Below are positions 14,570-52,305 of a stretch of DNA of 56,808 nucleotides, piece by piece. Position numbers and translations under genes: made by a program. Position 1 is the stretch's first letter, and each line of letters opens with the position of its first letter. This DNA comes from a virus, in IMG/VR virus record IMGVR_UViG_3300042448_001281, positions 1-56,808 of that record; one strand, written 5' to 3'. Below the pieces are notes generated by a model. That model did not search any database and was not told where the DNA came from. It saw only the letters and a list, made by a program, of their open reading frames with translations.

Positions 14570-15007
14570 ATGATTAAATGGAAAAAAGAGATGCAAGAAA
14601 GTTACAATTTATACTTAGATGATATTAGAGAGCCTTCTCAATCATTCAAAAAGAGTGGTGATAGTAGATACAATGATTTAAAATGGAACATTGTTAGATG
14701 TTATAGTGAATTTGTAGAAACAATAGCATTAAATGGTATTCCTAATATCGTATCATTTGACCACGATTTAGGTGAGGAACATATTAACTACTATTTTGAT
14801 AATGGTGGTAGAGAAAATCCTCCTGACCCATTAAAAGGTCACTTTACCGAAAAGACTGGATATGACTGTGCTAAGTGGTTGGTTGAGTATTGTAGTGAAA
14901 ATGGTTTACCAATGCCAGAATACCTAATACATTCAGCAAATCCTGTGGGAAGTCAAAATATCCGTTTTATATTGGAAAATTACACTAAAAAACACCCATT
15001 TTCATAA
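14570..15007 (+). CDS. Cyclic-phosphate-processing receiver (cREC)-like protein
   Basis: The N-terminus has N-L-Y-L-D-D-I-R-E-P (Asp17-18), then W-N-I-V-R-C-Y-S-E-F, then N-I-V-S-F-D-H-D-L-G-E-E-H (Asp64, Asp66), and later G-Y-D-C-A-K-W-L-V. This order matches the cREC family, a receiver-like domain linked by genome context to cyclic-phosphate RNA ends and conflict systems. An alternative start at 14591 would remove seven residues. The stop overlaps the first palindromic repeat. Confidence 0.7.
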   Translation: MIKWKKEMQESYNLYLDDIREPSQSFKKSGDSRYNDLKWNIVRCYSEFVETIALNGIPNIVSFDHDLGEEHINYYFDNGGRENPPDPLKGHFTEKTGYDCAKWLVEYCSENGLPMPEYLIHSANPVGSQNIRFILENYTKKHPFS

Positions 15008-15080
15008 CTAGTTGATTATCAATGAGTTACGATATTAGAAAAAAATCTAATGTGTAAATGATTGATTGTCAACGATTTTA
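15004..15080 (+). repeat. Palindromic repeat cluster A (two sites)
   Basis: Site 1 (15004-15029) has the core GTTGATTATCAA flanked by AACT and AGTTA. Site 2 (about 15055-15080) is weaker, with TTGATTGTCAA. The first site overlaps the stop codon of the cREC-like gene. A promoter starts 19 nt further on. Confidence 0.75.
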
Positions 15081-15098
15081 AAAAAACTTTCCAAAAAG

Positions 15099-15130
15099 TT
15101 TGGCGGTTTCAAAATAATGTCGTATCTTTG
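15099..15130 (+). promoter_or_regulatory. Bacteroidota-type promoter linked to palindromes
   Basis: TTTG at 15099-15102 and TATCTTTG at 15123-15130, spacing 20 nt, just downstream of repeat cluster A. It serves the 15187 gene. Confidence 0.85.
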
Positions 15131-15186
15131 GTATATATCCAAATTGATAAAGATATATCCACACACACATTATATAATCTTTTAAT

Positions 15187-15453
15187 ATGACAGTTATGAG
15201 TAAACTACCAAAAAATCTTAAAATGATTAGTTGTCCCAAATGTTTAGGTAAAATGCCTGAATTGAGATTAACTAAATTCGGTTATCGTTTTTGTATTAAT
15301 TGTTCCACTACACAAAGAGTTGGTGGTGTTGCAATTGCAAATCATAAGACGGGTAACGAAATACAAATTATGCCTATGGAACAAGCAAATAGATTATACA
15401 AGTTGTCACAAAGACAAGGGTATGGTGTTTGTAAAGGTATGAAACATAATTAA
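15187..15453 (+). CDS. Small zinc-ribbon protein
   Basis: Cys pairs C-P-K-C at 16-19 and C-I-N-C at 36-39 form a classic zinc ribbon around a K-F-G-Y-R-F loop. The C-terminal half (E-Q-A-N-R-L-Y-K-L-S-Q-R) is helical and basic. A second ATG at 15196 is an equally good start. Position directly after the palindrome-controlled promoter makes a regulatory role plausible but unproven. Confidence 0.6.
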   Translation: MTVMSKLPKNLKMISCPKCLGKMPELRLTKFGYRFCINCSTTQRVGGVAIANHKTGNEIQIMPMEQANRLYKLSQRQGYGVCKGMKHN

Positions 15454-15479
15454 TAATATTTAACTTTTTAATTCTAAAC

Positions 15480-15512
15480 AAATGTGGAGCCACCACACTA
15501 AAAACTGGAAAA
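15480..15512 (+). promoter_or_regulatory. Small leader hairpin GTGG-AGCCA-CCAC
   Basis: GTGG, loop AGCCA, CCAC at 15484-15496 lies 23 nt upstream of the ATG at 15519. A near-identical hairpin occurs before the 20714 gene. Confidence 0.4.
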
Positions 15513-15518
15513 ACACGT

Positions 15519-15689
15519 ATGACTACTTTAAAGTCTAAATTTGAATTTATTTCAAACCAATTAAACGAAGCATTAACTAGCGCTAACACTACAACTTCTG
15601 AACAAAAGAAAGCGTATTATTTAAGTAGAGCTTTGTACTATTCACAAAGATTGAATACATTAGCACAAAGAGCTAAGATTTCTGCATAA
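15519..15689 (+). CDS. Hypothetical protein (56 aa)
   Basis: The sequence is helical and slightly basic, with a middle E-Q-K-K-A-Y-Y-L-S-R-A-L-Y-Y-S-Q-R-L. No family recognised. It is followed at once by the tRNA-like hairpin element at 15705. The leader carries the GTGG-CCAC hairpin. Confidence 0.55.
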   Translation: MTTLKSKFEFISNQLNEALTSANTTTSEQKKAYYLSRALYYSQRLNTLAQRAKISA

Positions 15690-15704
15690 TTTGCAGATAA
15701 ACTA

Positions 15705-15747
15705 AGATAGTTTGGAACATGTAGGGGTTCAATTCCCCTACTATCTT
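15705..15747 (+). ncRNA. tRNA-like minihelix (acceptor stem plus T-arm)
   Basis: AGATAGT (15705-15711) pairs with ACTATCT (15740-15746). It is directly stacked on AGGGG (15723-15727) / CCCCT (15735-15739), closed by a T-loop TTCAATT that fits the TTCRANY consensus exactly. The 11-nt connector contains GG, as in a D-loop. There is no anticodon arm. This is the shape of a tRNA top half or of the tmRNA tRNA-like domain. It lies between the 15519 and 15779 genes and could be an RNA processing site. Function is inference. Confidence 0.5.
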
Positions 15748-15778
15748 CATATTTATTAAACACTAAAACATAAAGAGT

Positions 15779-17869
15779 ATGGGCTGGTATGACAGTTTTA
15801 AAACAGGTACATTAGATTACCTTACAAAAGGTAGTTATTCAAAACAAAAAAAGAAATCTGCAAGTTCATTTTGGGCAGATGAGTGGAGCCAGTACGATAC
15901 TCCTACTACCTATTGGAGTGGTGGTGAATGGAAAACACAACAACTTTCCAAAGTAGAAAATAGTACGGCAGAGTTACTTAAACTTAACGCACACAAAAGA
16001 GCAATCTCTAACTTTGTAAACATTCTTACAAATAAAAACATTCCTGTTACATTTGCTAAGAAAGGTGATTCATATACGGATGGTAAATCCGTAGTATTAT
16101 CAGCTGAGGTTAAACCTGATAAGTTTGACGTTGCAGTAGGTTTAGCATTGCACGAAGCATCACACATTGTTCTTACAGACTTTGAATTGATGCCTAAGTA
16201 TAATGCACCTAAAGATATGTTCAATCAGTTTGCAGTTGCAGCTGGTAAGGACCCTCAAAATTTAGATAGTGTAGAATATCATCTAAACAAAGATAACTTA
16301 TTTGATGTAGTTAAATCATTGGTAAACTTTGTAGAGGATAGAAGGATTGATCAATACATCTACAATACTTGTCCAGGTTATAGAGATTATTATAGAGCAT
16401 TGTATGATGAGTATTTCTATGATACTACTATTGATAAGGGATTGCAAAGTGATGAATATACGGATGAAACATTACAATCGTATATGTTCCGTATCATTAA
16501 TATCACAAACAGCAATAGTGACCTTAGTAAGTTAAAAGGTTTGAAAGAAATTTATCAAATCTTAGACCTTAAAAACATCAATAGGTTAAAATCAACTAAA
16601 GATTCATTAGAGGTAGCAGAAAAGATTACTAATACTATTCTAAAAAACATTAGTATTGAGTTATCCGAAAAACCACAAAATGGAAATGGTGAAGGTGAAG
16701 GTGGTGAACCACAAGAAATTGATGATTTGGGAGAAAACTTTGAAATTACACAAGGTGATGATAGTGGTGATAATTCATGTACAGGCGTTAAATTATCTAA
16801 AAATGCTAAGGCACAATTAGATAAAGCTATTAAGAAACAAAAAGATTTCGTAAACAATAATCTTAAAAAGAAAGCCTTAACTAAGAAAGAAAATGATACA
16901 CTAGACCAAATTGATAAGAGTGGAACTACAATGGAAAATGTAGGTGATACTAAATTGGAAAATGGTGGACATATTCCAGTAGTTCAATGTATGGTTTCTA
17001 AGAAAATGACAGAATCATTGATGCAAGATAGAGAGTTTCCATTTGCATATTGGAGTGATTATGATAATAAGTTTCACAACTGGAATGAGGAAACATTACG
17101 CAGAGGTATTATAATGGGTACTATTTTAGGTAAGAGAATTGCTGTTCGTAGTGAGGAAAGAGAAACAATCAATCCACGTCAAAAGAATGGTAGAATTGAT
17201 AAGAGAATGGTAGCGGCATTGGGGTATGATTATGTAAATGTATTCTCTCACAAAGAAGTAGATAAATTCAAAAAGGTAATGTTACATATTACTATTGATG
17301 GTAGTGGTAGTATGAGTGGTAGGAATTGGAATGACTCATTGGCATTAGCAATTGCAATTTGTAAAGCAGGTTCAATGGTTAGTAACTTGAATGTGCAGGT
17401 ATCTATTAGAGGTACTTGGGGTAACAAACCTTACATATGTATTGCGTATGATAGTAGAGTTGACAAGTTTGAGAAAGTAAAAAGATTGTTCCCTGCTTTA
17501 CAAGCAAATGGTACAACACCTGAGGGTTTAACATTCCAAGCTATTATGAAACACTTTGTAGAAAGTACAAAAGATATGGATAGTTATTTCTTAAACATAT
17601 GTGATGGTGAGCCTACCTTCTCAAACGATCAGGTAAGTTATGGTGGCCAAAATGCAGTTCTGCATACTAAGAAAATGGTAAACCAAATTAGAGAAATGGG
17701 TATCAATGTAATGAGTTACTTTGTAAGTGAGGGTGGTGGTAGTAGTTGGGGTAGTAGTTCAAAGGATAAATTCAAACAAATGTATGGTAGTGACAGTAGA
17801 TTCATAGATGTTACACAAATCGTACCAATTACAAAGACATTGAACGAGTTATTTATGAAAAAAGGGTAA
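15779..17869 (+). CDS. VWA-domain protein with HExxH zinc-peptidase-like N-domain
   Basis: Residues 125-129 read H-E-A-S-H within A-L-H-E-A-S-H-I-V-L-T, a zinc-peptidase signature; E-D-R-R-I-D-Q-Y near residue 189 follows and may supply the third ligand. A Gly/Glu-rich linker lies near residues 300-330. A VWA domain begins at about 500 with the MIDAS motif D-G-S-G-S at 507-511. The total is 696 aa. The MoxR-type ATPase gene follows, so the pair fits MoxR-VWA chelatase or chaperone modules such as CobS/CobT and RavA/ViaA. It probably remodels a target protein or loads metal. Target unknown. Confidence 0.8.
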   Translation: MGWYDSFKTGTLDYLTKGSYSKQKKKSASSFWADEWSQYDTPTTYWSGGEWKTQQLSKVENSTAELLKLNAHKRAISNFVNILTNKNIPVTFAKKGDSYTDGKSVVLSAEVKPDKFDVAVGLALHEASHIVLTDFELMPKYNAPKDMFNQFAVAAGKDPQNLDSVEYHLNKDNLFDVVKSLVNFVEDRRIDQYIYNTCPGYRDYYRALYDEYFYDTTIDKGLQSDEYTDETLQSYMFRIINITNSNSDLSKLKGLKEIYQILDLKNINRLKSTKDSLEVAEKITNTILKNISIELSEKPQNGNGEGEGGEPQEIDDLGENFEITQGDDSGDNSCTGVKLSKNAKAQLDKAIKKQKDFVNNNLKKKALTKKENDTLDQIDKSGTTMENVGDTKLENGGHIPVVQCMVSKKMTESLMQDREFPFAYWSDYDNKFHNWNEETLRRGIIMGTILGKRIAVRSEERETINPRQKNGRIDKRMVAALGYDYVNVFSHKEVDKFKKVMLHITIDGSGSMSGRNWNDSLALAIAICKAGSMVSNLNVQVSIRGTWGNKPYICIAYDSRVDKFEKVKRLFPALQANGTTPEGLTFQAIMKHFVESTKDMDSYFLNICDGEPTFSNDQVSYGGQNAVLHTKKMVNQIREMGINVMSYFVSEGGGSSWGSSSKDKFKQMYGSDSRFIDVTQIVPITKTLNELFMKKG

Positions 17870-17886
17870 AAAACACCAAAAAACCT

Positions 17887-17959
17887 AACTGGTTGAGTAT
17901 CAACAAGTTATGCATAACAATAAAATGGGGTGCATAACTCGTTGATTACTAACCACTTA
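17887..17959 (+). repeat. Palindromic repeat cluster B (two sites)
   Basis: Site 1 (17887-17912) reads with core GGTTGAGTATCAACAAGTTA. Site 2 (17931-17959) has CGTTGATTACTAACCACTTA. Both lie between the VWA gene and the promoter at 17968. Confidence 0.75.
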
Positions 17960-17967
17960 AAAATATA

Positions 17968-17999
17968 TTTGGTAGATTGGCAAAAAAGTTGTATCTTTG
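17968..17999 (+). promoter_or_regulatory. Bacteroidota-type promoter linked to palindromes
   Basis: TTTG at 17968-17971 and TATCTTTG at 17992-17999, spacing 20 nt. It gives the MoxR gene its own transcript and a 57-nt A-rich leader. Confidence 0.85.
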
Positions 18000-18055
18000 A
18001 TATAATCAAATGAGTAGAAATATAAACAATAAACAATAAACATTAAATTTCAGTT

Positions 18056-19282
18056 ATGAGTAAAAAAATGCAAAACGCAGAGTTCGGTTACACACAAGAG
18101 TGTTACAAAGTAGACAACATTAAATCTCGCTTCAACCTTGTTAATACAATGGGTGAAGTTGCAGATGATTCAACGATTGTAGGTAGTTCAATGAGAAAGA
18201 GAGCACATACAAACGGAAAAGCAATTAGAGGACACATCAATAAGAATGGTGTGAAAACATATCGTATGGTAGAAATGCAAGAATATACGGATATGTTGGT
18301 TAAGCCGATGAATACGGATATCGCAGAAACTATCGTAGAAAATCCAACGGAGCATAAAGATGTTATTGATTTCATCCACAAAGACGGTATGGAGTTGAAA
18401 CCTGCTAACTTAATTATGAACGAATTAAAGTGGAAATACTTATTGCGTTCAGCAGTTAGAGCTCGTAATATTATGATGACAGGACCGGCTGGTAGTGGTA
18501 AAACAATGGCAGCTAAAGCATTAGTAAGTGCATTGAAACGCCCTTTCTTTTACTTTAACTTAGGTGCTACACAAGACCCGAGAGCAGCTTTGATTGGTAA
18601 CACACACTTTAACAAATCGACTGGTACATACTTTAGTGAATCAGCATTCATTAAAGCAATTAAGACACCTTATGCAGTTGTATTGTTAGATGAGTTGAGT
18701 AGAGCACATCCAGAAGCTGCTAATATCTTAATGACGGTATTAGACCAAACACAAAGATACTTACGATTAGATGAGCAAGATAATTCACCAATCGTTGAGG
18801 TAGCAAAAGGTGTTACGTTTGTAGCAACCGCGAATATCGGCTCGGAATATACTGCAACACGTGTTATGGATAGAGCGTTGTTAGACCGTTTTGTAACTAT
18901 TGAGGTAGATACACTAAACGCAGATCAAGAATATCAGTTATTAAATATGTTGTATCCTGATACCAATCAAGAGGATTTGAAAGCAGTAGCTGAAATTGCA
19001 TCTCACACACGTGACCAAGTAAAAAGTGAGGTTGGTAAATTAACAACGGCAGTATCTACTCGTATTTCAGTAGAGATGGCAGGTTTGTTATATGATGGTT
19101 TCAACTTATTAGAAGCAGCAGAAGTAGCAATCTTTCCATTCTATTCGCAAGATGGTGGTATGGATAGTGAACGTACATATATTAAACAATTAGTTCAAAA
19201 ATACATCCGTGACGAGAATGATGGTGAAAAGTTATTCAACGAAGTGACAGAAGATGCTAATGATGATACGATAGTGTGGTAG
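18056..19282 (+). CDS. MoxR-type AAA+ ATPase
   Basis: Walker A is G-P-A-G-S-G-K-T at residues 143-150, Walker B is V-V-L-L-D-E-L near 210-216, and sensor I is F-V-A-T-A-N-I-G near 258. An R-A-L-L-D-R-F segment near 278 fits the arginine-finger/VxxRF region of MoxR/CobS proteins. The first 110 residues are an N-terminal domain without a clear family. It likely forms a ring that acts with the VWA protein upstream. A palindrome-linked promoter and a strong terminator delimit it. Confidence 0.88.
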   Translation: MSKKMQNAEFGYTQECYKVDNIKSRFNLVNTMGEVADDSTIVGSSMRKRAHTNGKAIRGHINKNGVKTYRMVEMQEYTDMLVKPMNTDIAETIVENPTEHKDVIDFIHKDGMELKPANLIMNELKWKYLLRSAVRARNIMMTGPAGSGKTMAAKALVSALKRPFFYFNLGATQDPRAALIGNTHFNKSTGTYFSESAFIKAIKTPYAVVLLDELSRAHPEAANILMTVLDQTQRYLRLDEQDNSPIVEVAKGVTFVATANIGSEYTATRVMDRALLDRFVTIEVDTLNADQEYQLLNMLYPDTNQEDLKAVAEIASHTRDQVKSEVGKLTTAVSTRISVEMAGLLYDGFNLLEAAEVAIFPFYSQDGGMDSERTYIKQLVQKYIRDENDGEKLFNEVTEDANDDTIVW

Positions 19283-19293
19283 ATATGTTATGA

Positions 19294-19332
19294 GGGTAGA
19301 GTTCATACTCATACTCATAACTGGCTCTACCC
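19294..19332 (+). other. Inverted repeat between MoxR gene and terminator
   Basis: GGGTAGAG (19294-19301) pairs with CTCTACCC (19325-19332) across a 23-nt loop containing a repeated TCATAC. No T run follows, so it may stabilise the mRNA end. Confidence 0.6.
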
Positions 19333-19343
19333 AATATTAACTC

Positions 19344-19378
19344 GATAGGGGTGCATTCTGCATCCCTATCATTTTTTT
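19344..19378 (+). terminator. Rho-independent terminator
   Basis: GATAGGGGTGCA (19344-19355) pairs with TGCATCCCTATC (19359-19370) across a 3-nt loop; seven T follow. This is the longest terminator stem seen in the window. Confidence 0.92.
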
Positions 19379-19397
19379 AATTTTAAAACATAAACAT

Positions 19398-20048
19398 ATG
19401 CCGAATTGGTGCTTAAATAGATTGACAGTAAGTGGTGATAAACATGAGATTAACAAATTCAAAGAACTTACATTAGTTAAACCGGAGAAAAGTAGTGAAC
19501 TGAATTTTACTATGGAAGTTTTATATCCTACTCCAACGGAATTATTAGAACAAACATCACCTGCAATGTGGCGTGGTGACGAACTGGATGTTGAAGGTAA
19601 GTTGGAATTTGAAAAGAAGATAGAAGAAATTAAAGAAAAGTATGGATATACTGACTGGTATAATTGGAGAGTAGATAAGTGGGGTACTAAATGGGATGCA
19701 GCAGAAAGTTGTATATGTGATGATACGGATGAATTATTTGTAGTAGAATACGATACAGCATGGGCACCTAATATTGCTTGGGTTCAATATGTAGCAAAAG
19801 CATTTCCTGCATTACAATTTACTTTGACCTTTGAAGAACCCAGTATGAACTTTTGTGGTATATACGAAGTGAAAGGTGAAAATGAGGACCTAATGGAAGG
19901 TGAATTAGAATATGTAGATGAAGAAACAGGTAGACAGGTTTACTATGATGGTGAAATTGAAAAGTATCGTTATAGTGACACGAATGAAATCGCAGGTACT
20001 GAAGATGAAGACTTTTGGCCTGAAATGAGAAACCCTTTTAATAACTAA
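19398..20048 (+). CDS. Api92-like ferredoxin-fold domain protein
   Basis: The start M-P-N-W-C-L-N-R-L-T-V-S-G-D matches the Api92/YubB-type ferredoxin-like fold family common on phages and plasmids. The middle W-G-T-K-W-D-A and the F-V-V-E-Y-D-T-A-W-A-P region are also typical. The acidic C-terminal tail differs. No enzymatic role is known; it is not an iron-sulfur protein. It begins a transcript after the MoxR terminator. Confidence 0.8.
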   Translation: MPNWCLNRLTVSGDKHEINKFKELTLVKPEKSSELNFTMEVLYPTPTELLEQTSPAMWRGDELDVEGKLEFEKKIEEIKEKYGYTDWYNWRVDKWGTKWDAAESCICDDTDELFVVEYDTAWAPNIAWVQYVAKAFPALQFTLTFEEPSMNFCGIYEVKGENEDLMEGELEYVDEETGRQVYYDGEIEKYRYSDTNEIAGTEDEDFWPEMRNPFNN

Positions 20049-20057
20049 ACAAACACA

Positions 20058-20660: not shown

Positions 20661-20674
20661 AGATTTTTTTTAAA

Positions 20675-20713: not shown

Positions 20714-21997
20714 ATGGCTAAAACCAAAAAAACCGGACCTGTATCCATTAGGCAACTGACAGGTGGTAAAAAGGGAGAACCAATTATTCCTAAAATAACT
20801 GCTCCAATAGGGAGTTATGAATTGGTAGACATTAATGAAGTATTGGATAATCCAGGACAAGTGATTTATGTAGATACATCACGTGAATTAGGTGAAACTC
20901 CACAAGAAGCATTAATTAATCATTATGCAACACTTGCAGAAAGTATAGAACAAACTGGATTAGAACAAATACCTGTTGTCTTTAGGTTTAAAGATGGGAC
21001 ACTATGTTTTAAGTCCGGTATGACAAGACGAGAGGTGTTAAGACGTATGGGAGCAACTCATATACCAATAACGATTATTGATAGAATGGATATTACATAC
21101 GATGAATATACAAATAGTCCAGAACATTGGTTTGACAAATACACCGATACAGCATCCTCTAATATTATGGATACTGAAAGGAAAAAGGAGATTAATCAGT
21201 ATAAACAAATGCTGGTAATAGAAGATGATCATAAAAAGAAATTTGGTAAACCATTATCAATTGATAATTTTAATAAAGCACTTACAATGACTGGATTAAC
21301 ACAGGATTTGTATGATAAGTTTCAGGCGGTACAAACCGAATGGCCAGAAATGTATGACAAATTGTTAATATTAAAAAAGACAGTTATACCAGCTTATAAA
21401 GAACTTTTACAAAAGAGAAAGCAACAAGCTAAAACAAAGAAAGCAAATCCTGCAGGATTTGGATTAGTAGATAAACAAATTATGAAAAAAATCCTAAATG
21501 CAGTAGCGGGATTAATGTTTGAATTGAATGAAGTAAAACTAATGACGAATGGTTTAAATCATGATTTCTTAAACTTAATTCAAACTAATATTAGAGGTGG
21601 ATTATTACATGAAGCAATTGTTCATTCATTTAAACACATTATGAATGATGCAAACCCAGACCATTCATGGGAAGCATATGATAATATGACATATGATTTA
21701 TTAAGTACCGGTATTGGACTTGAAATTGATGTTAAAACAAGAATCTTAGGTAGTAAAGATTGGACATGTAAAGCAAACAATATTAAAAGTGGATTTTATC
21801 TATTTGTTGAAGCAAATGATGATATGACACAATGGTTTGTAGCATATGGATATACTAAAGCAGAGGATTGGGATAAGAAAAATACAATGGGCATGTATAA
21901 TACTAAAACTTTAGCAAAGAATATCGGTAAGAATATGAATATACTTATTGGTAATATTGACAGTAAAGGAAAATTATATACACATCCAATTCAATAG
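20714..21997 (+). CDS. ParB/Srx-type N-terminal domain protein with unassigned C-domain
   Basis: Residues about 35-120 match the ParB/Srx fold: a V-D-I-N-E-V-L-D-N-P-G-Q segment, L-A-E-S-I-E-Q-T-G-L-E-Q-I-P-V-V-F, then K-S-G-M-T-R-R-E-V-L-R-R-M-G-A in the place of the G-x-x-R-R motif. A central helical part is basic (Q-K-R-K-Q-Q-A-K-T-K-K-A). The last 140 residues contain G-L-E-I-D-V-K-T-R and beta strands, possibly a PD-(D/E)xK nuclease core. ParB-like phage proteins can be nucleases or DNA organisers. A strong terminator follows. Confidence 0.7.
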   Translation: MAKTKKTGPVSIRQLTGGKKGEPIIPKITAPIGSYELVDINEVLDNPGQVIYVDTSRELGETPQEALINHYATLAESIEQTGLEQIPVVFRFKDGTLCFKSGMTRREVLRRMGATHIPITIIDRMDITYDEYTNSPEHWFDKYTDTASSNIMDTERKKEINQYKQMLVIEDDHKKKFGKPLSIDNFNKALTMTGLTQDLYDKFQAVQTEWPEMYDKLLILKKTVIPAYKELLQKRKQQAKTKKANPAGFGLVDKQIMKKILNAVAGLMFELNEVKLMTNGLNHDFLNLIQTNIRGGLLHEAIVHSFKHIMNDANPDHSWEAYDNMTYDLLSTGIGLEIDVKTRILGSKDWTCKANNIKSGFYLFVEANDDMTQWFVAYGYTKAEDWDKKNTMGMYNTKTLAKNIGKNMNILIGNIDSKGKLYTHPIQ

Positions 21998-26017: not shown

Positions 26018-26138
26018 ACAACTCATTGATTATCAACAAGTTATAACTTATTGGTTTTCAATGGGTTATCTATGTCTATTAGATTTTTTTTATATATGAA
26101 AAAAACATATGCGTAACTGATTGATCCTCAATAAAAAC
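26018..26138 (+). repeat. Palindromic repeat cluster C (three sites)
   Basis: Two adjacent sites share cores ATTGATTATCAACAAGTTAT and TTGGTTTTCAATGGGTTAT. The third has ATTGATCCTCAAT about 45 nt later. Spacing and order match cluster D. Confidence 0.8.
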
Positions 26139-26163: not shown

Positions 26164-26193
26164 TTGTTAGTCAAAAATATCGTCGTATCTTTG
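26164..26193 (+). promoter_or_regulatory. Bacteroidota-type promoter linked to palindromes
   Basis: TTG at 26164-26166 and TATCTTTG at 26186-26193, spacing 19 nt. The leader ends in the conserved AAAAAAATTATAATATGAA. Confidence 0.85.
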
Positions 26194-26238: not shown

Positions 26239-27084
26239 ATGAATACAATGAAATTTACAACAATCGGTAATGCTAAAAAGGTAACGGGTTTATCTTATTT
26301 AGGTAGTGTAGCAAGTAGTTCAAAAATTGCTAAAGGTTTAAAGTACAATGAAATGACTTACATTTTGTATCTTGCTCCTGCTGAACAAAGTGGTTACAAT
26401 GTTTGTCCTGGTTCAACGGCTGAATGCAGAGAAGCTTGTTTAACTGAAAGTGGACACAATAGAATTGATGTTAAGAAAAATGCAATCAACAAAGCTCGTA
26501 TCAAAAAAACTAAATTGTTCTTTGAGCATAGAGAGTTCTTTATGGGTTGGTTAGTAACTGAAATTAATAAAGCTAGAAACGATGCCTTTGCTAAAGGATA
26601 TACATTTTCAGTTCGTTTAAATGGGACATCGGATATTCAACCAACATTATTTAAATTCAATGGTAAGGTGATTTTTGATGTATTTAACGAAGTGACATTT
26701 TATGATTATACTAAGGTTGCTAATCGTTTTAAGTTATTAAATAAGTATTCTAACTATGATTTAACTTATTCTTTTAGTGGTTACAATATGTTACAATCAT
26801 TGGAGTTATTAGAAAATAATAAAGGTAGAGTTGCAATGGTATTTGAAGGTAAACAATTACCCAAATCATTTATGGGTTACAAAGTAATTGATGGTGATGA
26901 ATACGATATGAGACACTTAGATGAGACGGGTGTAATTGTAGGATTGAAGTTTAAGTTTGTTAGAACAAAGATTGATACTGCACATAACAAATTCATTATC
27001 CCTATGGATAGCAAGTTTAGTGTGTATGATGTAAACCCTTTGATAACAAAAGCTGCTCAAAATAAATTGGCATTAGCTAAGTAA
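26239..27084 (+). CDS. Gp88-family phage protein
   Basis: The layout L-A-P-A-E-Q-S-G-Y-N-V-C-P-G-S-T-A-E-C-R-E-A-C-L (Cys 56, 63, 67) and V-R-L-N-G-T-S-D-I near residue 130 fits the gene-product-88 family of phages. The three Cys look like a metal or cluster site. Role unknown. It is expressed from a promoter with palindromes and starts a long operon of small genes. Confidence 0.7.
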   Translation: MNTMKFTTIGNAKKVTGLSYLGSVASSSKIAKGLKYNEMTYILYLAPAEQSGYNVCPGSTAECREACLTESGHNRIDVKKNAINKARIKKTKLFFEHREFFMGWLVTEINKARNDAFAKGYTFSVRLNGTSDIQPTLFKFNGKVIFDVFNEVTFYDYTKVANRFKLLNKYSNYDLTYSFSGYNMLQSLELLENNKGRVAMVFEGKQLPKSFMGYKVIDGDEYDMRHLDETGVIVGLKFKFVRTKIDTAHNKFIIPMDSKFSVYDVNPLITKAAQNKLALAK

Positions 27085-33636: not shown

Positions 33637-33745
33637 CATAACTCATTGATTATCAGCAAGTTATAAGTTGTTGGTTTTCAATGAGTTATAAATCTTTATG
33701 GCATTGGGTAATTATTAAGACGTAACTCGTTGATACTCAATAAAC
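33637..33745 (+). repeat. Palindromic repeat cluster D (three sites)
   Basis: Sites at 33637-33662 (core ATTGATTATCAGCAAGTTAT), 33664-33690 (core TTGGTTTTCAATGAGTTAT) and 33719-33745 (core GTTGATACTCAAT). Same order and spacing as cluster C. Confidence 0.8.
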
Positions 33746-33782
33746 AATCTTTATTTTAGGTAAAAATAGTTTAAAAAAGGCA

Positions 33783-33812
33783 TTGTTAGTCCAATAAAAA
33801 GTCGTATCTTTG
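33783..33812 (+). promoter_or_regulatory. Bacteroidota-type promoter linked to palindromes
   Basis: TTG at 33783-33785 and TATCTTTG at 33805-33812, spacing 19 nt. The leader ends in AAAAATTATAATATGAA. Confidence 0.85.
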
Positions 33813-33859: not shown

Positions 33860-34273
33860 ATGAACTATTATCAAATTGTAGCATTTGCACAAACCTTAAA
33901 ATCTAAAAATATGAAAAGTAACAATGAGAATGCATTTATCAATGATGCGTATGATGAAGAAAGTAAATTACACATTGAGTTTATGAGTGAAGTGAAACGA
34001 CACGATTATTCTTATATGATGAGTGATGATGATAGAGTTTATAGAAACGGCCGTAGTGTTGAAAAACAAATTGAAGAAAAACTACACGCACTTATCAACA
34101 TATGTAAATATGATGCAAGTGATTTGTTGGATGAAGTTCTAACCAATGTAAAACAAGAATACAATGATAGGGATAGTAACGGAGATGATTTAACACATAG
34201 AGTAATTAAAGGTTGGTTCAAACCTTATACTGAAACTGAAAGAAAATTATTCACATTAAACAACGATAGATAA
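33860..34273 (+). CDS. Hypothetical protein
   Basis: 137 residues, acidic and helical (N-E-N-A-F-I-N-D-A-Y-D-E-E, then I-E-E-K-L-H-A-L-I-N-I). The start is supported by the leader conserved at three promoters; a second ATG at 33911 is possible. No family recognised. It is the first gene of the operon with DNA ligase, 1 nt ahead of it. Confidence 0.55.
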   Translation: MNYYQIVAFAQTLKSKNMKSNNENAFINDAYDEESKLHIEFMSEVKRHDYSYMMSDDDRVYRNGRSVEKQIEEKLHALINICKYDASDLLDEVLTNVKQEYNDRDSNGDDLTHRVIKGWFKPYTETERKLFTLNNDR

Positions 34274-34274
34274 T

Positions 34275-35384
34275 ATGAAACTAGATACAATATACAAAAA
34301 GACAAAGACAGGTGCAACGCAAGAATGGACAATTGAAGTAGTGGGTAACAAATACCGAACTCATAGTGGACAAGTTGGTGGTGCTATTACTACGAATGAA
34401 TGGACAATTTGTTATGGTAAGAATGTAGGTAGAGCAAACGAAACTACGGATAAAGAACAAACAATGGCAGAAGCCGTAGCAAAGAGAACAAAGAAGTTAG
34501 AGAGTGGTTACTTTGAGAATATCAAACACATTAACAAACAACAATACTTTGAACCAATGTTGGCAAGTAAGTGGGAAGATAGTAAAGATAAGATTACTTA
34601 CCCAATCTTTTCACAACCTAAGTTAGATGGTATTCGTTGTGTAGTGACAAAAGATGGTATGTTTAGTAGAAATGGTAAACCAATCATTTCAGCACCACAT
34701 ATTAGAAAGAGTTTGGATGATATATTTCAAGTATATCCTGAATTGATATTGGATGGTGAGTTATATGCTGACAAGTTCGCAAATGACTTTAATAAGATTG
34801 TATCGTTGGTAAAGAAAACTAAACCAAATGATACCGATTTGAAAGAAAGTAAAAAGAATATTCAGTATTGGATTTATGATTTACCTGATAACGATATACA
34901 ATTTGGTGAAAGATGTGAAAGATTAAATGAGTTGTTTGAAAATTACAATTCATTCAGTAAGCATTGTGTAGAAGTTGAAACTGAGATTTGTAATGATGAA
35001 GATGAAGTGATGGGGTTGTATGAGGAATATGTGGATAATGGATTTGAAGGTCAGATGTTACGATTGAATAAAGAGTATGAGAATAAGAGAAGTAAATCTT
35101 TAATGAAACATAAATCGTTTGTTGATGAAGAATATACTATTTTGGATATCGTAGAGGGTGAGGGTAATAGAACTGGAACGGCTGGTTATATGGTATTTGA
35201 AACGATTGAAGGTAAACGATTCAAATCAAATGTAAAAGGAACGTGGGATGAAACTGCCGAAATGTTAAAGAATAAAAAGAAACTAATAGGCAAGCAAGCA
35301 ACGATTAAGTATTTCAATCTAACACCAGATGGAATACCTCGTTTCCCATATGTAATTAATATTGATAGAAACGAATACGAATAA
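34275..35384 (+). CDS. ATP-dependent DNA ligase with WGR-like N-domain
   Basis: The adenylated Lys is K116 in Q-P-K-L-D-G-I-R (motif I). Motif III is L-D-G-E-L-Y near residue 155, motif IV is E-G-Q-M-L-R near 256, and motif V is S-L-M-K-H-K near 275. The OB domain follows (G-K-Q-A-T-I-K-Y-F-N-L). The first 75 residues (E-W-T-I-E-V-V-G-N-K-Y-R-T-H-S-G) resemble a WGR-like domain, which is unusual for a minimal phage ligase. It joins nicks in replication or repair. Total 369 aa. Confidence 0.88.
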   Translation: MKLDTIYKKTKTGATQEWTIEVVGNKYRTHSGQVGGAITTNEWTICYGKNVGRANETTDKEQTMAEAVAKRTKKLESGYFENIKHINKQQYFEPMLASKWEDSKDKITYPIFSQPKLDGIRCVVTKDGMFSRNGKPIISAPHIRKSLDDIFQVYPELILDGELYADKFANDFNKIVSLVKKTKPNDTDLKESKKNIQYWIYDLPDNDIQFGERCERLNELFENYNSFSKHCVEVETEICNDEDEVMGLYEEYVDNGFEGQMLRLNKEYENKRSKSLMKHKSFVDEEYTILDIVEGEGNRTGTAGYMVFETIEGKRFKSNVKGTWDETAEMLKNKKKLIGKQATIKYFNLTPDGIPRFPYVINIDRNEYE

Positions 35385-43280: not shown

Positions 43281-43820
43281 ATGTTTGATAAGTTAGTAGA
43301 TTTATTAGTTAGATTTAGTATGGATATATTACCATTTGTTATTGTAGAACAATGGAATGGTGCAGTACAATTAAGATATGGAAAGTTTATAAAAGTATTA
43401 TATCCTGGTATTCATTTTAAGATACCATTTTTTGATTCTATTGTTGAATGTCCTGTTATTACACAGTCGGTCAACTTACCCTCACAAACCCTAACTACAT
43501 TAGACGAACAAAGTATTGTATTGAAATCAATTATCAGATACAAAGTAAGTAACATACAAACTTATTTATTAGGTGTGATGCACGCAAACGATGTCCTAAT
43601 TGATACGACACAAGGAATGATTAGAGATGTAGTAGAGTTAACAACATGGGATGATTTGGTGGATGTGAACGAAACAATAACCAATAAAGTAAAAGAATAT
43701 GTAGTAAGGTGGGGAATAGAAGTCGAAGCAGTAACAATAACAGATTTGGGAATTGTAAAAAGTTTCCGTATATTTGGAGATGAAGGGCATAAAACAACAA
43801 TATTACCAACCGATATATAA
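43281..43820 (+). CDS. SPFH/Band 7 (stomatin-like) protein
   Basis: The start has a short hydrophobic anchor (L-V-R-F-S-M-D-I-L-P-F-V-I-V). The SPFH core is clear: G-A-V-Q-L-R-Y-G-K, Y-P-G-I-H-F-K-I-P-F-F-D, then L-D-E-Q-S-I-V-L-K-S-I-I-R-Y-K-V, then I-R-D-V-V. The 179-aa protein lacks the long C-terminal coiled coil of host stomatins. SPFH proteins organise membranes and modulate proteases. A phage copy may compete with or guard host membrane complexes; this is inference. Confidence 0.8.
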   Translation: MFDKLVDLLVRFSMDILPFVIVEQWNGAVQLRYGKFIKVLYPGIHFKIPFFDSIVECPVITQSVNLPSQTLTTLDEQSIVLKSIIRYKVSNIQTYLLGVMHANDVLIDTTQGMIRDVVELTTWDDLVDVNETITNKVKEYVVRWGIEVEAVTITDLGIVKSFRIFGDEGHKTTILPTDI

Positions 43821-47261: not shown

Positions 47262-47262
47262 T

Positions 47263-47391: not shown

Positions 47392-47394
47392 TTT

Positions 47395-47655
47395 ATGATT
47401 AACCTAAATGAAATAATTAATGGTTGGGCAAATGTTATTAAAGATAGAATAGGAACATTGGACCCGAATATAAAACAAATGGCAGAGAATAGATTGATAT
47501 TATGTAATTCTTGTCATATGAGAATAGGGAATAGTTGTAGCACTAAAAATGTTGGAATAAACGAAATAACAAAAAAAGAAACAAACGGATGTGGATGTAA
47601 TATATCTGCAAAAACTTTAAGTCCGGATAGTAAGTGCCCATTGAGTAAGTGGTAA
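47395..47655 (+). CDS. Cys-rich zinc-binding protein
   Basis: Cys at 37, 40, 48, 66, 68 and 81 in the order C-N-S-C, C, C-G-C, C-P. The A-E-N-R-L-I-L-C-N-S-C-H-M-R region is typical of a small phage family whose role is unknown. Confidence 0.6.
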   Translation: MINLNEIINGWANVIKDRIGTLDPNIKQMAENRLILCNSCHMRIGNSCSTKNVGINEITKKETNGCGCNISAKTLSPDSKCPLSKW

Positions 47656-47678
47656 TTAAATAATTTAAATTAAATAAT

Positions 47679-47900
47679 ATGAAAATAGAGTTTAGTATGT
47701 TCAGTAATTTCAGGTCACTAATTGGATTTGAAATAGAACGCAATGGTGCAGTTAGAAAAGATAAAAACGATAGTCCGGTATTTCAAAGGACAGTAGAAAT
47801 TACAATTGGTTTCTTATTTGGATATCTGTCACTTAACTTTGATTTGGGAAATGCGGTATCAATAGAGAAATTAATTACCGAACATAAAGATTTGTTATAG
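47679..47900 (+). CDS. Hypothetical small protein
   Basis: 73 residues with F-G-Y-L-S-L-N-F-D-L-G near the end. No family recognised. Confidence 0.5.
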   Translation: MKIEFSMFSNFRSLIGFEIERNGAVRKDKNDSPVFQRTVEITIGFLFGYLSLNFDLGNAVSIEKLITEHKDLL

Positions 47901-47901
47901 T

Positions 47902-48369
47902 ATGTTAAAGATTAAAAATAGTATATTAATATTTTCAATTATACTAATATTCACATCTTGTCAAAAAAGAATTGATTATTCAACGGATATTAATAAGTTA
48001 AAAGCAGAGATAGAACTTTTAAAACAAAGTAATGTAAAATATGAAAATGATTTGAGTGTATTAAAAACACAAGTTAATCTATTTAAATTACAAATGGATT
48101 CTATAAAAATCCAAACGGATTCAATTCAAATAAAATTGAAAAATGTAGACAAATCAATATCGAACATTTATACAATAATAGAAACTATTAATAAGTTAAT
48201 GTTGGAAATTAATATAAAAATATATGATTTACAATATCAATTAGAACAAAATAGATTTGAATATTATAGAATAGTAAGTGCCTTAGTTGATATCATAGAT
48301 AATATTGGTTTGTTAAACAGAGAAGTTTCAGGATTGATAGAGGCAGTTCAAAATCTACAAAAAAAATAA
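47902..48369 (+). CDS. Coiled-coil lipoprotein
   Basis: The lipobox Cys is at residue 20 (I-F-T-S-C). The rest is a long coiled coil with heptads of Ile/Leu (L-K-A-E-I-E-L-L-K-Q-S-N). The layout recalls phage Rz1/spanin-type or envelope coil proteins. Despite an M-L-K-I-K-N start it is not part of the small family, as the rest differs. Confidence 0.65.
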   Translation: MLKIKNSILIFSIILIFTSCQKRIDYSTDINKLKAEIELLKQSNVKYENDLSVLKTQVNLFKLQMDSIKIQTDSIQIKLKNVDKSISNIYTIIETINKLMLEINIKIYDLQYQLEQNRFEYYRIVSALVDIIDNIGLLNREVSGLIEAVQNLQKK

Positions 48370-48371
48370 CT

Positions 48372-48641
48372 ATGTTAACAATACAAAATCCACAAAAATT
48401 AATTGGGGAAAAATATAATGAAACATTTACTATCATTGGGGTTAAAGAACATAAACATCATTACGAATTTACATTAGGATATGATGCGAGTATAAAACCG
48501 GCAGTAGAAACAATATTACTACATAGAAAGCAAACCGATAACGGAATGTATGTAATGGAATACAATAGTAAAACACTTTGGTTAAACAAAGATGAATTTG
48601 ATACGATAGATAAGATTATAATTTGTATGCAAACAATATAG
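48372..48641 (+). CDS. M-L-x-I-K-N family protein, copy 3
   Basis: Starts M-L-T-I-Q-N-P-Q-K-L. It has V-K-E-H-K-H-H-Y-E-F-T-L and ends K-T-L-W-L-N-K-D-E-F-D then a helix. The W-L-N-K segment matches W-L-L-P in copy 4. Confidence 0.6.
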   Translation: MLTIQNPQKLIGEKYNETFTIIGVKEHKHHYEFTLGYDASIKPAVETILLHRKQTDNGMYVMEYNSKTLWLNKDEFDTIDKIIICMQTI

Positions 48642-48690
48642 TACACTTTTTGGTGGGGCGGGGGTTGGGGGAAAAAAGTGTCGTTGGGAA
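48642..48690 (+). other. G-rich hairpin with quadruplex potential
   Basis: ACACTTTTT (48643-48651) pairs with AAAAAGTGT (48673-48681). The loop is GGTGGGGCGGGGGTTGGGGG, with four G runs and another GGG at 48686-48688. Such a G-rich tract stands out in this AT-rich sequence. Confidence 0.5.
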
Positions 48691-48720
48691 ATTTTTTTGA
48701 TAGTATAAATCATATATACA

Positions 48721-49026
48721 ATGTTAATAATACAAAACATAGATAAAATAAAAAGTAAATTACAACAAAAGGTAATCATTGAGGAATTTGAATTAGTATA
48801 TAGATTCTACATTGATAACCCAAATTACTTAGGTGGCAAGAATGGTATATGGCAACCAATGAAGTGGGAAATTACATTGAGTAGAGTTCATCCACCTGAT
48901 ATAAATCATCCACATAGAAACTACTATCTATTATCAAATGGTAAAAAACAAATATGGTTACTACCAAATGAAATAACACTAGATAAGATAGTGGATAGTA
49001 TTAAATTAATGGGATTCTTAAATTAA
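48721..49026 (+). CDS. M-L-x-I-K-N family protein, copy 4
   Basis: Starts M-L-I-I-Q-N-I-D-K-I-K. It ends K-Q-I-W-L-L-P-N-E-I-T then a helix. The ATG follows the G-rich hairpin by about 40 nt. Confidence 0.6.
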   Translation: MLIIQNIDKIKSKLQQKVIIEEFELVYRFYIDNPNYLGGKNGIWQPMKWEITLSRVHPPDINHPHRNYYLLSNGKKQIWLLPNEITLDKIVDSIKLMGFLN

Positions 49027-49031
49027 ACATA

Positions 49032-49376
49032 ATGCTGATAATAAAAAACATAGATAGAATAAAGCATAAGGTAATACAATTCGGTGGTGAGACATGGACG
49101 ATAGCAGGTGTAAAAGAAGCTGGTTTGTTAGATGGTGATTATTATCAATTCAGTATACATTCATTTTTTGGTAATAAGATGGTACATATATTTTTGAATA
49201 GAGAAACGAAAGGTGAAAAGCAGAAGGAGCAAGAGTATTATCACTATGAGGGTAGAGGTGAATACTATGAATTGATAAGTAGCTGGGATAGTGATATGGT
49301 TACAATAAATAAAGAGTTATTAAGTAAGGAAGGATTATTAATGTTTATGCAAAAAATGTTAGAAACAATAAAATAA
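49032..49376 (+). CDS. M-L-x-I-K-N family protein, copy 5
   Basis: Starts M-L-I-I-K-N-I-D-R-I-K. I-A-G-V-K-E-A matches I-I-G-V-K-E-H in copy 3, and the C-terminal helix is L-L-M-F-M-Q-K-M-L. 114 aa. Confidence 0.6.
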   Translation: MLIIKNIDRIKHKVIQFGGETWTIAGVKEAGLLDGDYYQFSIHSFFGNKMVHIFLNRETKGEKQKEQEYYHYEGRGEYYELISSWDSDMVTINKELLSKEGLLMFMQKMLETIK

Positions 49377-49382
49377 GATACA

Positions 49383-49715
49383 ATGTTAAAGATACAAAAT
49401 ATAAATAAGATAAAAGGGTTGACAGTGAATGGTTGTAAAGTATTAGATATAGAATATAATACTATACAAAGAGGATATATTTTTACAATGGAAGATACAC
49501 ATGGTTTAAATTCAGAAAAAACAGGCCAGTTTTTAATTAAATTATTAGATACCAATTATGAAGTAGATGAATATGAATTTTTTATAATGGGATGGAAGGT
49601 AGCAACTGAACGAAGTGTCACTAAAGAAAAAATCCGTAATATGAATGGATTTGCAAATCAAATGTATGAACTGATTGAGAGAGGTGTTAAAGTTTTAAAA
49701 AGTTATAATAAATAA
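49383..49715 (+). CDS. M-L-x-I-K-N family protein, copy 6
   Basis: Starts M-L-K-I-Q-N-I-N-K-I-K, with I-E-Y-N-T-I-Q-R-G-Y-I-F-T-M strands and a C-terminal helix. 110 aa. Confidence 0.6.
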   Translation: MLKIQNINKIKGLTVNGCKVLDIEYNTIQRGYIFTMEDTHGLNSEKTGQFLIKLLDTNYEVDEYEFFIMGWKVATERSVTKEKIRNMNGFANQMYELIERGVKVLKSYNK

Positions 49716-49721
49716 AACCAT

Positions 49722-50045
49722 ATGTTAGTAATAAAGAATTGTGAAAAACTAAAAGGTGAGGAAGTCCTTAATTTTAGAACGGCGGAAAGGTATGAGATAG
49801 AAGGGATGTATGAAGATAGTGATTGTTATAAAATACATTTACGGTCCGTACATAAACCAATAGTAGATGAGGTATTTATACTATTAAGAAATAAAGTCCA
49901 AAACGAAAGCGGTTTTACATATAATTACTATACCCTATACAATAGTAATGAACCACAAAGCAGGCAGAATGTAACAATGGATATGATAAGATTAAAAGAA
50001 ATGTTGTTACACTCAATAGAACAAATCTTAAAAATGAGAAACTAA
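49722..50045 (+). CDS. M-L-x-I-K-N family protein, copy 7
   Basis: Starts M-L-V-I-K-N-C-E-K-L-K. The middle D-S-D-C-Y-K-I-H-L-R-S matches the Y-Y-Q-F-x-I/F-x-H pattern of copies 5 and 35386. Ends in a helix M-I-R-L-K-E-M-L-L-H-S-I-E-Q-I-L. Confidence 0.6.
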   Translation: MLVIKNCEKLKGEEVLNFRTAERYEIEGMYEDSDCYKIHLRSVHKPIVDEVFILLRNKVQNESGFTYNYYTLYNSNEPQSRQNVTMDMIRLKEMLLHSIEQILKMRN

Positions 50046-50050
50046 AAACA

Positions 50051-50323
50051 ATGTCGGTAGTAAAAATAATAATCATAATACTATTCAGTCTATTGAGTAT
50101 AAAAGTAAAAGGACAGAGTATAGAGAAACAAAACGAAGATACACTTACTCAATCAATATACTATCAACACACTATCATAAACACAAAGAGAATAAGTGTG
50201 TATGGGTATAGTTCATATGATTTAAACTTTGGAGATGAGAGTGGTATAGGTATTGTATATAGTATAAGGTATAGAAATAAAAAAAAGAAACTAAAACAAA
50301 TAAGATATGAATATAATAAATAA
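50051..50323 (+). CDS. Exported small protein
   Basis: A signal peptide is likely (V-V-K-I-I-I-I-I-L-F-S-L-L-S-I-K-V-K-G-Q). The mature part is beta-like with Y/S/G-rich strands (I-S-V-Y-G-Y-S-S-Y-D-L-N-F-G). No family recognised. Confidence 0.55.
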   Translation: MSVVKIIIIILFSLLSIKVKGQSIEKQNEDTLTQSIYYQHTIINTKRISVYGYSSYDLNFGDESGIGIVYSIRYRNKKKKLKQIRYEYNK

Positions 50324-50486
50324 AATCTCTAATATGGATGGGATAGACGAATATATCCTATTAAGTAAAGAGAGTATAGATAGGTTAGTGAATGATAGTA
50401 AGAGACTGGATGATAAGAGCCAAAAGTTAATCGTACAAATGAGTAAATGGATGTATGATAACGATATGATTGAATACGAAGATTAA
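50307..50486 (+). CDS. Hypothetical small helical protein (59 aa)
   Basis: Acidic helix (D-E-Y-I-L-L-S-K-E-S-I-D-R-L-V-N-D-S-K-R). The start overlaps the previous stop; 50334 is an alternative. Confidence 0.45.
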   Translation: MNIINKISNMDGIDEYILLSKESIDRLVNDSKRLDDKSQKLIVQMSKWMYDNDMIEYED

Positions 50487-50498
50487 ATAAAAAATACA

Positions 50499-50783
50499 AT
50501 GTTAAGTTATAGTGAAGATTTTGATTCCATAATTCATGTAAGAGTAAACGGAGAAACAATTATGGAATTAGAGAGAATATATGAAGTAGATGAAAATAAA
50601 AATTCTTATAGTGAAGTAGTTAATCAATGTAGGTTAATGAACATATTGAATAAAAAGCAGAAAGGATATGTACGGATTGAGAATGTAGAGTTATGGCAGT
50701 GTATATGGTATAGGGATAGTGGAATGTATGAGGAAATTCGTCTAACTACAATTAAAGTAAATAATAAAAGAAAAAGGGTATAA
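50499..50783 (+). CDS. Hypothetical protein, possible divergent family member
   Basis: 94 residues starting M-L-S-Y-S-E-D-F. It lacks the I-K-N motif but lies inside the array and has a basic end. Family membership is uncertain. Confidence 0.45.
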   Translation: MLSYSEDFDSIIHVRVNGETIMELERIYEVDENKNSYSEVVNQCRLMNILNKKQKGYVRIENVELWQCIWYRDSGMYEEIRLTTIKVNNKRKRV

Positions 50784-50786
50784 AGT

Positions 50787-51077
50787 ATGTTGATAATAAA
50801 AAACCTATATAAGATAAGACACCAACCGATAGTAGAAGGATGGATAGTATTTGATGTAGGATTGATAAGTAATACATTGGAGTACGAATTTATTTTACAC
50901 AATACAATAGGGAATGCAATACAACGGGTTTATTTAGAAAGAGTAAAATCGAATCATAGATGGTATAGGTTATATACGGAAAGGAGAGGCAAAAGATATG
51001 TTCAATTAGTAACGAAAGAAACAATACAAAATATAAAAGAATTATTAGAACACATACAAGTAGTAGGAATAAATTAA
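50787..51077 (+). CDS. M-L-x-I-K-N family protein, copy 8
   Basis: Starts M-L-I-I-K-N-L-Y-K-I-R; ends K-R-Y-V-Q-L-V-T-K-E-T-I then a helix I-K-E-L-L-E-H-I. 96 aa. Last member of the array. Confidence 0.6.
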   Translation: MLIIKNLYKIRHQPIVEGWIVFDVGLISNTLEYEFILHNTIGNAIQRVYLERVKSNHRWYRLYTERRGKRYVQLVTKETIQNIKELLEHIQVVGIN

Positions 51078-51097
51078 TAAAACAAAACAAAATAAAA

Positions 51098-51241
51098 ATG
51101 GAAAAGATTAAAAAGATTTGGAATTTAGTGTATGTACCAACGGCATTTATTTTAGGTGGATTGAATATGTGGATAGGTGAAACGGGTATAGGTTGTCTAT
51201 TTATTTTATTTGCAACGAATGAAACAATAAATAAAGATTAG
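51098..51241 (+). CDS. Small membrane protein (47 aa)
   Basis: Hydrophobic segments V-P-T-A-F-I-L-G-G-L-N-M-W and I-G-C-L-F-I-L-F-A-T suggest one or two membrane helices. Confidence 0.45.
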   Translation: MEKIKKIWNLVYVPTAFILGGLNMWIGETGIGCLFILFATNETINKD

Positions 51242-51538
51242 AGGATATCATAATAGCTAAAAGATATATCAATATACTAATATACATATTTTGATATATA
51301 CATACATAATAATAAGGTCCGATGTATGATATTTTACCACTTACTCCCACATTCACCCACAATTCAACACACATAAGGGATACAAAGAACTATCATATTA
51401 AATAAAACCTATTAAAGTAGTTTTCAGTCCTTATCCATTCACATTGTCGGACCGCAAAATTTTTTAGGGAATATTTTTACATAGTTAGTTCACACAAAAA
51501 AGAAACCTTTAATATTTGGTAGTGTAAAATAAATTTCG
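51242..51538 (+). other. AT-rich gap without a gene
   Basis: The gap is mostly AT-rich and repeats of TATA type occur at its start (51262-51310). A pair GGTCCG (51316) and CGGACC (51448) could form a loose inverted repeat. No ORF is supported. It ends at the promoter at 51515. Confidence 0.5.
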
Positions 51539-51546
51539 TATCTTTG
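51515..51546 (+). promoter_or_regulatory. Bacteroidota-type promoter
   Basis: TTTG at 51515-51518 and TATCTTTG at 51539-51546, spacing 20 nt. It reads into the RNA at 51552. Confidence 0.82.
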
Positions 51547-51551
51547 GTATA

Positions 51552-51646
51552 ACAGACTGGGACAGAATATAATACATAATATTCTCAATCGTTGCTAGTT
51601 ACTCCTTTTTACCCTTTGATAAGTGCAACACCCGGTCTGTTTTTTA
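51552..51646 (+). ncRNA. Small RNA or attenuator leader before 51661 gene
   Basis: The 5' end ACAGACTGGG (51552-51561) pairs with CCCGGTCTGT (51631-51640), followed by a T run, so the RNA closes on itself and ends as a terminator. An inner hairpin GAATAT/ATATTC is at 51565-51584. The promoter just upstream would start it near 51551. It ends 14 nt before the HEWCH gene, so it is either a 95-nt sRNA or a leader that controls read-through. Confidence 0.5.
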
Positions 51647-51660
51647 TAAAAGCCAATTTA

Positions 51661-52020
51661 ATGAATATAAAAGAATTTAAAAGAAATCATGCATTGAGAG
51701 TAATGACTTGGTGCAAACACAATATAGGCCTGAATGGTAGGAGACACTATTTACCTATATTAGAATGGCATAGTTCTGGCGAAGATTGTGGCGATTATGA
51801 TTTTGAAGATAATATTATTTCGGTTTATAAATCGCAACACAATTCAGTTTTAGAAATTATTCATACCATAATTCACGAGTGGTGTCACTACAAACAAAGC
51901 AAACAAAAATATTATAAATTTGATGAAGAGCTTGGTTACAATAAAAATCCTTTAGAAATTCAGGCAGATAAAATTGCGAATGAATTAAAATTTAAATGTA
52001 GAAAAGATTTATTTTATTAA
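51661..52020 (+). CDS. Zinc-metallopeptidase-like protein (HEWCH)
   Basis: The start at 51661 follows the terminator-like leader; the ATG at 51592 lies inside that RNA. I-I-H-E-W-C-H-Y-K-Q at 70-79 is the zinc site and L-E-I-Q-A-D-K-I-A near 98-106 gives the third ligand. It resembles the 32021 protein in layout (119 aa) and may be SprT/ImmA-like. Confidence 0.62.
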   Translation: MNIKEFKRNHALRVMTWCKHNIGLNGRRHYLPILEWHSSGEDCGDYDFEDNIISVYKSQHNSVLEIIHTIIHEWCHYKQSKQKYYKFDEELGYNKNPLEIQADKIANELKFKCRKDLFY

Positions 52021-52104
52021 TTCTATCGTGACGTCCGACAAAATGAATAAAAGTAAAGTAATCCCTTTACCGAATCCCGGAAAAGTAAAGTTATAGCTAG
52101 ACTT

Positions 52105-52305
52105 TATAACTCATTGGAAATCAACCACTTAGAAAATCCCTATAAAATACTGATAATCAACGAGTTATAACTTGCTGATAATCAATTAGTTGTGTAAAGT
52201 ACTGAAAATCAATCAGTTATGCAATCCGTTGATTATCAGCAAGTTATGTCCGGTCCTAACATATAACAAAAAAACATATATGTAACTTGTTGATTATCTA
52301 TAAAA
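52105..52305 (+). repeat. Palindromic repeat cluster E (about six sites)
   Basis: Sites lie near 52105, 52149, 52170, 52200, 52222 and 52281, with cores such as TGATAATCAACGAGTTAT, CTGATAATCAATTAGTT and GTTGATTATCAGCAAGTTA. This is the densest cluster and includes both orientations. Confidence 0.75.

Follow-up and report, generated by a model that had tools for sequence, protein, structure and literature searches.

Promoters of a large Bacteroidota phage, represented here by a fragment of 56,808 nucleotides (the window; IMG/VR record IMGVR_UViG_3300042448_001281), are in part preceded by clusters of a 25-bp palindrome, TAACTnnTTGATwATCAAnnAGTTA, with 20 fixed letters. This palindrome is real, widespread and not private to the phage of the window. 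Each of its halves corresponds to the IHF consensus, and the sites probably represent symmetric targets of a host-encoded bending protein of the HU/IHF family (DNABII) that aids the phage promoters. The motif is undescribed in the literature that we searched, where neither its core sequence nor a Bacteroidota IHF site led to anything relevant.

Palindrome clusters upstream of promoters

The window was scanned with TAACTnnTTGATnATCAAnnAGTTA at a cut-off of at least 16 of the 20 fixed letters, which returned 16 sites, whereas 100 dinucleotide-shuffled versions gave 0.39 on average and never more than 3. They comprise clusters A to E, the last with six sites within an A/T-rich stretch, plus one more site at position 13869 (Table 1). 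An earlier note on this DNA had proposed the five clusters, all of which were recovered. The note had furthermore pointed to the likeness of clusters C and D, whose site order and first spacing of 25 bp are indeed common to both, but the second spacing differs (70 versus 59 bp). In agreement with its promoter claim, every cluster, and likewise the site at 13869, sits upstream of a Bacteroidota-type promoter with the -7 box TATCTTT(G/A). Promoters of the same kind with -7 boxes near 7762, 14300 and 51539 lack the palindrome, which hence marks only a subset of the promoters.

Table 1. Palindromic sites and associated promoters in the window (match: fixed letters in agreement, of 20)
Feature	Position	Strand	Match	Remarks
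Site outside clusters A-E	13869..13893	.	17	3' end of ferredoxin-like gene; 68 bp to -7 box 13949
Cluster A site 1	15005..15029	.	20	IHF consensus exact in both halves
Cluster A site 2	15055..15079	.	16	promoter-proximal
Promoter A, -7 box TATCTTTG	15123..15130	+		first gene 15187-15453, 88 aa, zinc-ribbon-like
Cluster B site 1	17886..17910	.	19	
Cluster B site 2	17935..17959	.	17	
Promoter B, -7 box TATCTTTG	17992..17999	+		gene 18056-19282, MoxR-type AAA+ ATPase
Cluster C site 1	26019..26043	.	19	IHF consensus exact in both halves
Cluster C site 2	26044..26068	.	17	directly abuts C site 1
Cluster C site 3	26114..26138	.	15	promoter-proximal; distal half kept, promoter side A/T-rich
Promoter C, -7 box	26186..26193	+		gene 26239-27084, GP88 family, PF17338
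Cluster D site 1	33639..33663	.	19	
Cluster D site 2	33664..33688	.	17	abuts D site 1
Cluster D site 3	33723..33747	.	16	promoter-proximal
Promoter D, -7 box	33805..33812	+		genes 33860-34273, then 34275-35384 (ATP-dependent DNA ligase)
Cluster E site 1	52107..52131	.	17	
Cluster E site 2	52143..52167	.	17	
Cluster E site 3	52168..52192	.	18	abuts E site 2
Cluster E site 4	52195..52219	.	16	
Cluster E site 5	52222..52246	.	16	
Cluster E site 6	52283..52307	.	16	promoter-proximal; distal half kept, promoter side A-rich
Promoter E, -7 box TATCTTTA	52355..52362	+		gene 52410-52784, 124 aa

The distance between site and -7 box amounts to 41-82 bp in 77 of 86 nonredundant viral promoters, and in none of the 86 is the nearest site located at 20-40 bp, so that the palindromes, which are never placed on the core promoter, have the position expected for an upstream activator. 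The promoter-distal half of the sites is better kept than the proximal one (41 versus 18 of 84), and their promoter side is A/T-rich. For the orthologs of the gene after cluster E the array is repeated, with a kept promoter-proximal half-site followed by A/T-rich DNA. A phasing of the site-to-promoter distance by 10.5 bp was not seen (R 0.10); a signal of 5.25 bp was found, a periodicity that one would not expect of a classical activator. At the orthologs of the MoxR promoter, the site-bearing phages use a -33 element of the TTTGG type. TTGAC is present at -33 in 9 of 24 siteless versus 0 of 9 site-bearing phages (Fisher p 0.04, not corrected for phylogeny), as if a strong -33 box replaced the activator, a pattern that is suggestive only. 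A general loss of strong -33 boxes at site-bearing promoters was rejected, since it is not general and no more than suggestive at this one promoter.

Distribution in phages and chromosomes

Exact scans retrieved at least 118 motif-bearing stretches from viral contigs and at least 120 from genome contigs, and the genome matches listed come from Bacteroidota, Fibrobacter, Lentisphaeria and an "uncultured bacterium". At up to two mismatches the site is present in 42 of 395 Bacteroidota genomes, one of which has 101. Six genomes that were picked for carrying a match harbor 49-178 copies at up to three mismatches. At the same threshold, the Microscillaceae MAG Prado074 contains 4131 copies in 6.8 Mb versus 19 in the reversed control. 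Its copies (e.g., L126, L132, L139) are mostly single with unique flanks, and the relatives from its family have 0-17 copies at up to two mismatches.

The palindrome is present in ten of 20 related large phages, with a maximum of 21 sites in the 274 kb of G418, and absent from the other ten. The siteless phages include close relatives (G419, G424-G426, G428, G430), so that the palindrome is dispensable even though an IHF-like gene is present in most of the Bacteroidota genomes examined, a point that speaks against the reading as a host IHF site. Exact abutting of neighboring sites at 25 bp is frequent. A site is located upstream of 20 of 33 GP88 orthologs and 16 of 65 distinct MoxR orthologs, compared with 3.5% of background windows. 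Viral sites lie more often between divergent than between convergent genes (38 versus 10 loci), and the mixed chromosomal loci comprise 64 convergent and 62 divergent intervals with sites.

The IHF consensus and a candidate host protein

The logo that was pooled from at least 247 exact viral and genome matches is two-fold symmetric, with A or T as central base in 98% and T at position -12 in 92%, though the viral scan imposed no T there. Column tables split by set agree with the pooled logo. Read outward from the dyad, the half-site is W-ATCAA-NNNN-TTR, which is the IHF consensus, and one palindrome corresponds to two inverted half-sites with one W in common. The agreement extends to every constrained IHF position, namely W (98%), ATCAA, TT and R (A 0.88, G 0.09). 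The motif consensus conforms to the IHF consensus WATCAANNNNTTR as cited in PMC5963220, at least one exact copy of which is present in 14 of the 17 window sites. Moreover, the left half of the motif, TAACTnaTTGATw, equals letter for letter TAACTTATTGATT, a Vibrio fluvialis IHF site that was tested by EMSA and mutation (PMC5963220), and the lambda H' site (NC_001416) is a degenerate pseudo-palindrome about the same W.

Lambda H' and the V. fluvialis tssD2 promoters resemble the phage sites in their half consensus, the W dyad, the A/T-rich flanks and the place upstream of promoters. However, in known IHF sites a single consensus faces an A-tract across the dyad, whereas the phage sites have the consensus on both sides and often abut in arrays of 25 bp. 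The best phage sites are symmetric and only some promoter-proximal ones asymmetric; the kept distal half together with the A/T-rich promoter side resembles the layout of consensus plus A-tract. The IHF of E. coli is a heterodimer in which the beta subunit alone has Arg46, and the consensus is restricted to one side of its sites. Alpha Ser47 and beta Arg46 enter the lateral minor grooves (PMC8421141), and the presence of the arginine in beta alone fits this one-sided consensus. An HU protein of P. gingivalis (PG0121) reportedly bound an inverted-repeat 77-mer better than a control (PMC3969353), which is a weak precedent only.

The search for phage-encoded proteins of this family with PF00216 returned no match above the cut-off in the window and the 20 related phages, with one weak sub-cut-off match in G415, and PF18291 had no match in G000, G418, G420 and G427. 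PF00216 matched at least once in all 20 bacterial genomes first tested. The IHF-like query was matched in 26 of 27 genomes, albeit weakly in G021, G023, G028 and G070, the first three of which have only weak DNABII matches. The exception is Prado074 (G013), where neither of two PF00216 matches represents the IHF-like protein, and that no IHF-like gene was found in the genome with 4131 palindromes counts against a host IHF-like binder. Within its family 11 of 15 genomes have an IHF-like match; besides Prado074, 3 of 14 are without one, so that assembly gaps are possible.

The Bacteroidota IHF-like protein is a member of PF00216 (E 1.8e-26), and its best-scoring NCBIfam model is TIGR00988 (E 1.9e-18), where its 66.6 bits fall short of the cut-off of 119.95. 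Arg46, located before a G/N-FG motif, is kept in 15 of 15 readable IHF-like proteins, which stem from 15 genomes, and seven HU paralogs have V, L or I at the same position. The arginine is shared with IHF-beta (TIGR00988), but the Bacteroidota proteins contain Tyr or Phe in place of Glu44. No alpha partner of the IHF-like protein was identified.

The assignment to a host protein is based on the half-site, the lack of a phage HU/IHF gene above the cut-off and Arg46 of the host proteins. The Bacteroidota host would supply an IHF-like DNABII protein on which the phage relies, and as a homodimer it may recognize TTR in either half; with an Arg46 in each subunit, the two-fold symmetry of the site would be accounted for. 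Bound in arrays whose centers for the most part precede the -7 box by 41-82 bp, the protein would sharply bend the upstream DNA and thereby help RNA polymerase at the site-bearing subset of phage promoters. IHF acts in this way at a number of promoters of E. coli and its phages, and upstream IHF stimulates lambda pL, ilvPG and Mu early. These promoters have the bending protein upstream of the core promoter, as proposed for the phage sites, but the phage differs from them by its serial sites and the promoter type of the Bacteroidota's own. From the sequences we infer all three elements, i.e., binding by an IHF-like protein, its homodimeric state and activation by binding. Position, promoter-facing asymmetry and conservation suggest an upstream architectural activation.

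A wider proposal, to which we are inclined to give slightly less than even credence, is that Bacteroidota have a homodimeric, sequence-specific IHF with a fully symmetric site, from which phages, and one chromosome with about 4000 copies, may have built promoter arrays as a shared regulatory code. Binding of a host IHF-like protein to the phage sites would already provide a function and a binding sequence for a widespread but little studied Bacteroidota DNABII protein, and explain by its homodimeric state why the IHF site, asymmetric elsewhere, is a palindrome here. It would also offer a searchable mark for host-factor-dependent promoters of Bacteroidota phages that have not been cultivated and whose transcription programmes are for the most part obscure.

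Phage-encoded partners and alternative explanations

The earlier note had regarded the palindrome as the binding site of a phage regulator or a DNA-organising protein. Two-fold symmetry, non-covariation, conservation before orthologous genes and the fixed upstream position are in favor of such a site, but its attribution to the phage was not borne out: the motif is not phage-specific, and the IHF consensus match points to a host HU/IHF-family protein. Gene content was compared by BLAST only, between the site-bearing phages G418, G420 and G427 (complete or nearly so) plus G421, fetched from 140 kb on, so that gene absence there is not evidence, and the siteless G426, G430 and G419. No DNA-binding gene was common to the site-bearing and missing from the siteless phages, and a phage-encoded binder was rejected. 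The suggested partner with a ParB domain at 20714, which was matched by no Pfam, PHROGs or NCBIfam model, has no homolog in G418, G420, G427 and the fetched part of G421, and its sole homolog among the fetched phages resides in the siteless G430. A ParB/parS system was discarded, as ParB is not common to these site-bearing phages. A homolog of the other suggested partner, the zinc-ribbon protein at 15187, was not detected in G418 with its 21 sites. Neither of the two suggested partners is therefore supported as the binder.

Palindromes may also form RNA or DNA hairpins, such as terminators or REP-like mobile elements, and the high copy number in one chromosome would be compatible with them. 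However, the variable n positions pair no more than predicted from column composition in the viral and Prado074 sets, and only the pooled set of other genomes has a slight pairing excess. The lack of covariation in the viral sites indicates that a protein dimer reads the palindrome. Since the sites moreover stand before promoters and not after genes, and a larger mobile unit was not seen around the phage sites, a hairpin, terminator or REP element is extremely improbable and was rejected.

A more serious competitor, though still an unlikely one, is an unrelated sequence-specific dimeric transcription factor of host or phage that activates or represses, its IHF likeness being coincidental. A 25-bp two-fold palindrome before promoters and its patchy occurrence within one phage family would suit such a factor. 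The IHF likeness is a short-motif argument: for seven fixed and two two-fold positions the chance over all alignments is about 4e-4 per motif, which is not negligible among a few hundred regulators. On the other hand, IHF spacing is exact, the terminal R is present, and the half-site is identical with a tested IHF site, while BLAST across the window, G418, G420, G427 and the available portion of G421 provided no standout DNA-binding gene. With the Fur box the motif has just TGATwATCA in common, and at a position where that box requires T it has A in 86-94%. The Bacteroidetes LexA motifs CTAA-N5-TTAG and GGA-N5-TCC (PMC8565304) do not fit either, and a LexA operator was rejected. It is quite doubtful, and less probable than the unrelated factor, that the binding of an IHF-like protein serves not transcription but DNA architecture, be it at a replication origin, in packaging or in the nucleoid, promoter gaps simply being the main non-coding space. 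Phage intergenic space is indeed mostly promoter space, and the six sites of cluster E in A/T-rich DNA, the balance of convergent and divergent chromosomal intervals and the thousands of copies in Prado074 are in line with this explanation. Yet the viral preference for divergent intervals, the empty zone at 20-40 bp in all 86 viral promoters, the promoter-facing asymmetry and the recurrence before GP88 and MoxR orthologs argue against it.

Several other genes of the window were observed alongside. The region 15779-19282 encodes a VWA-domain-like protein followed by the MoxR/CobS-type AAA+ ATPase, and both have homologs in each of the seven related phages that were compared, irrespective of whether these carry palindromes. 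A protein of 1092 aa (8094-11372) combines carboxypeptidase-regulatory-like and outer-membrane beta-barrel domains (PF13620, PF25183), which is unusual for a phage; four of these seven phages have a homolog, two per orientation relative to their neighbors. Short proteins in a row with the start M-L-x-I-x-N (48372-51077) resemble tandem paralogs (DNA repeat family D3), and a phage-encoded Band 7/SPFH-domain protein (PF01145) is located at 43281-43820.
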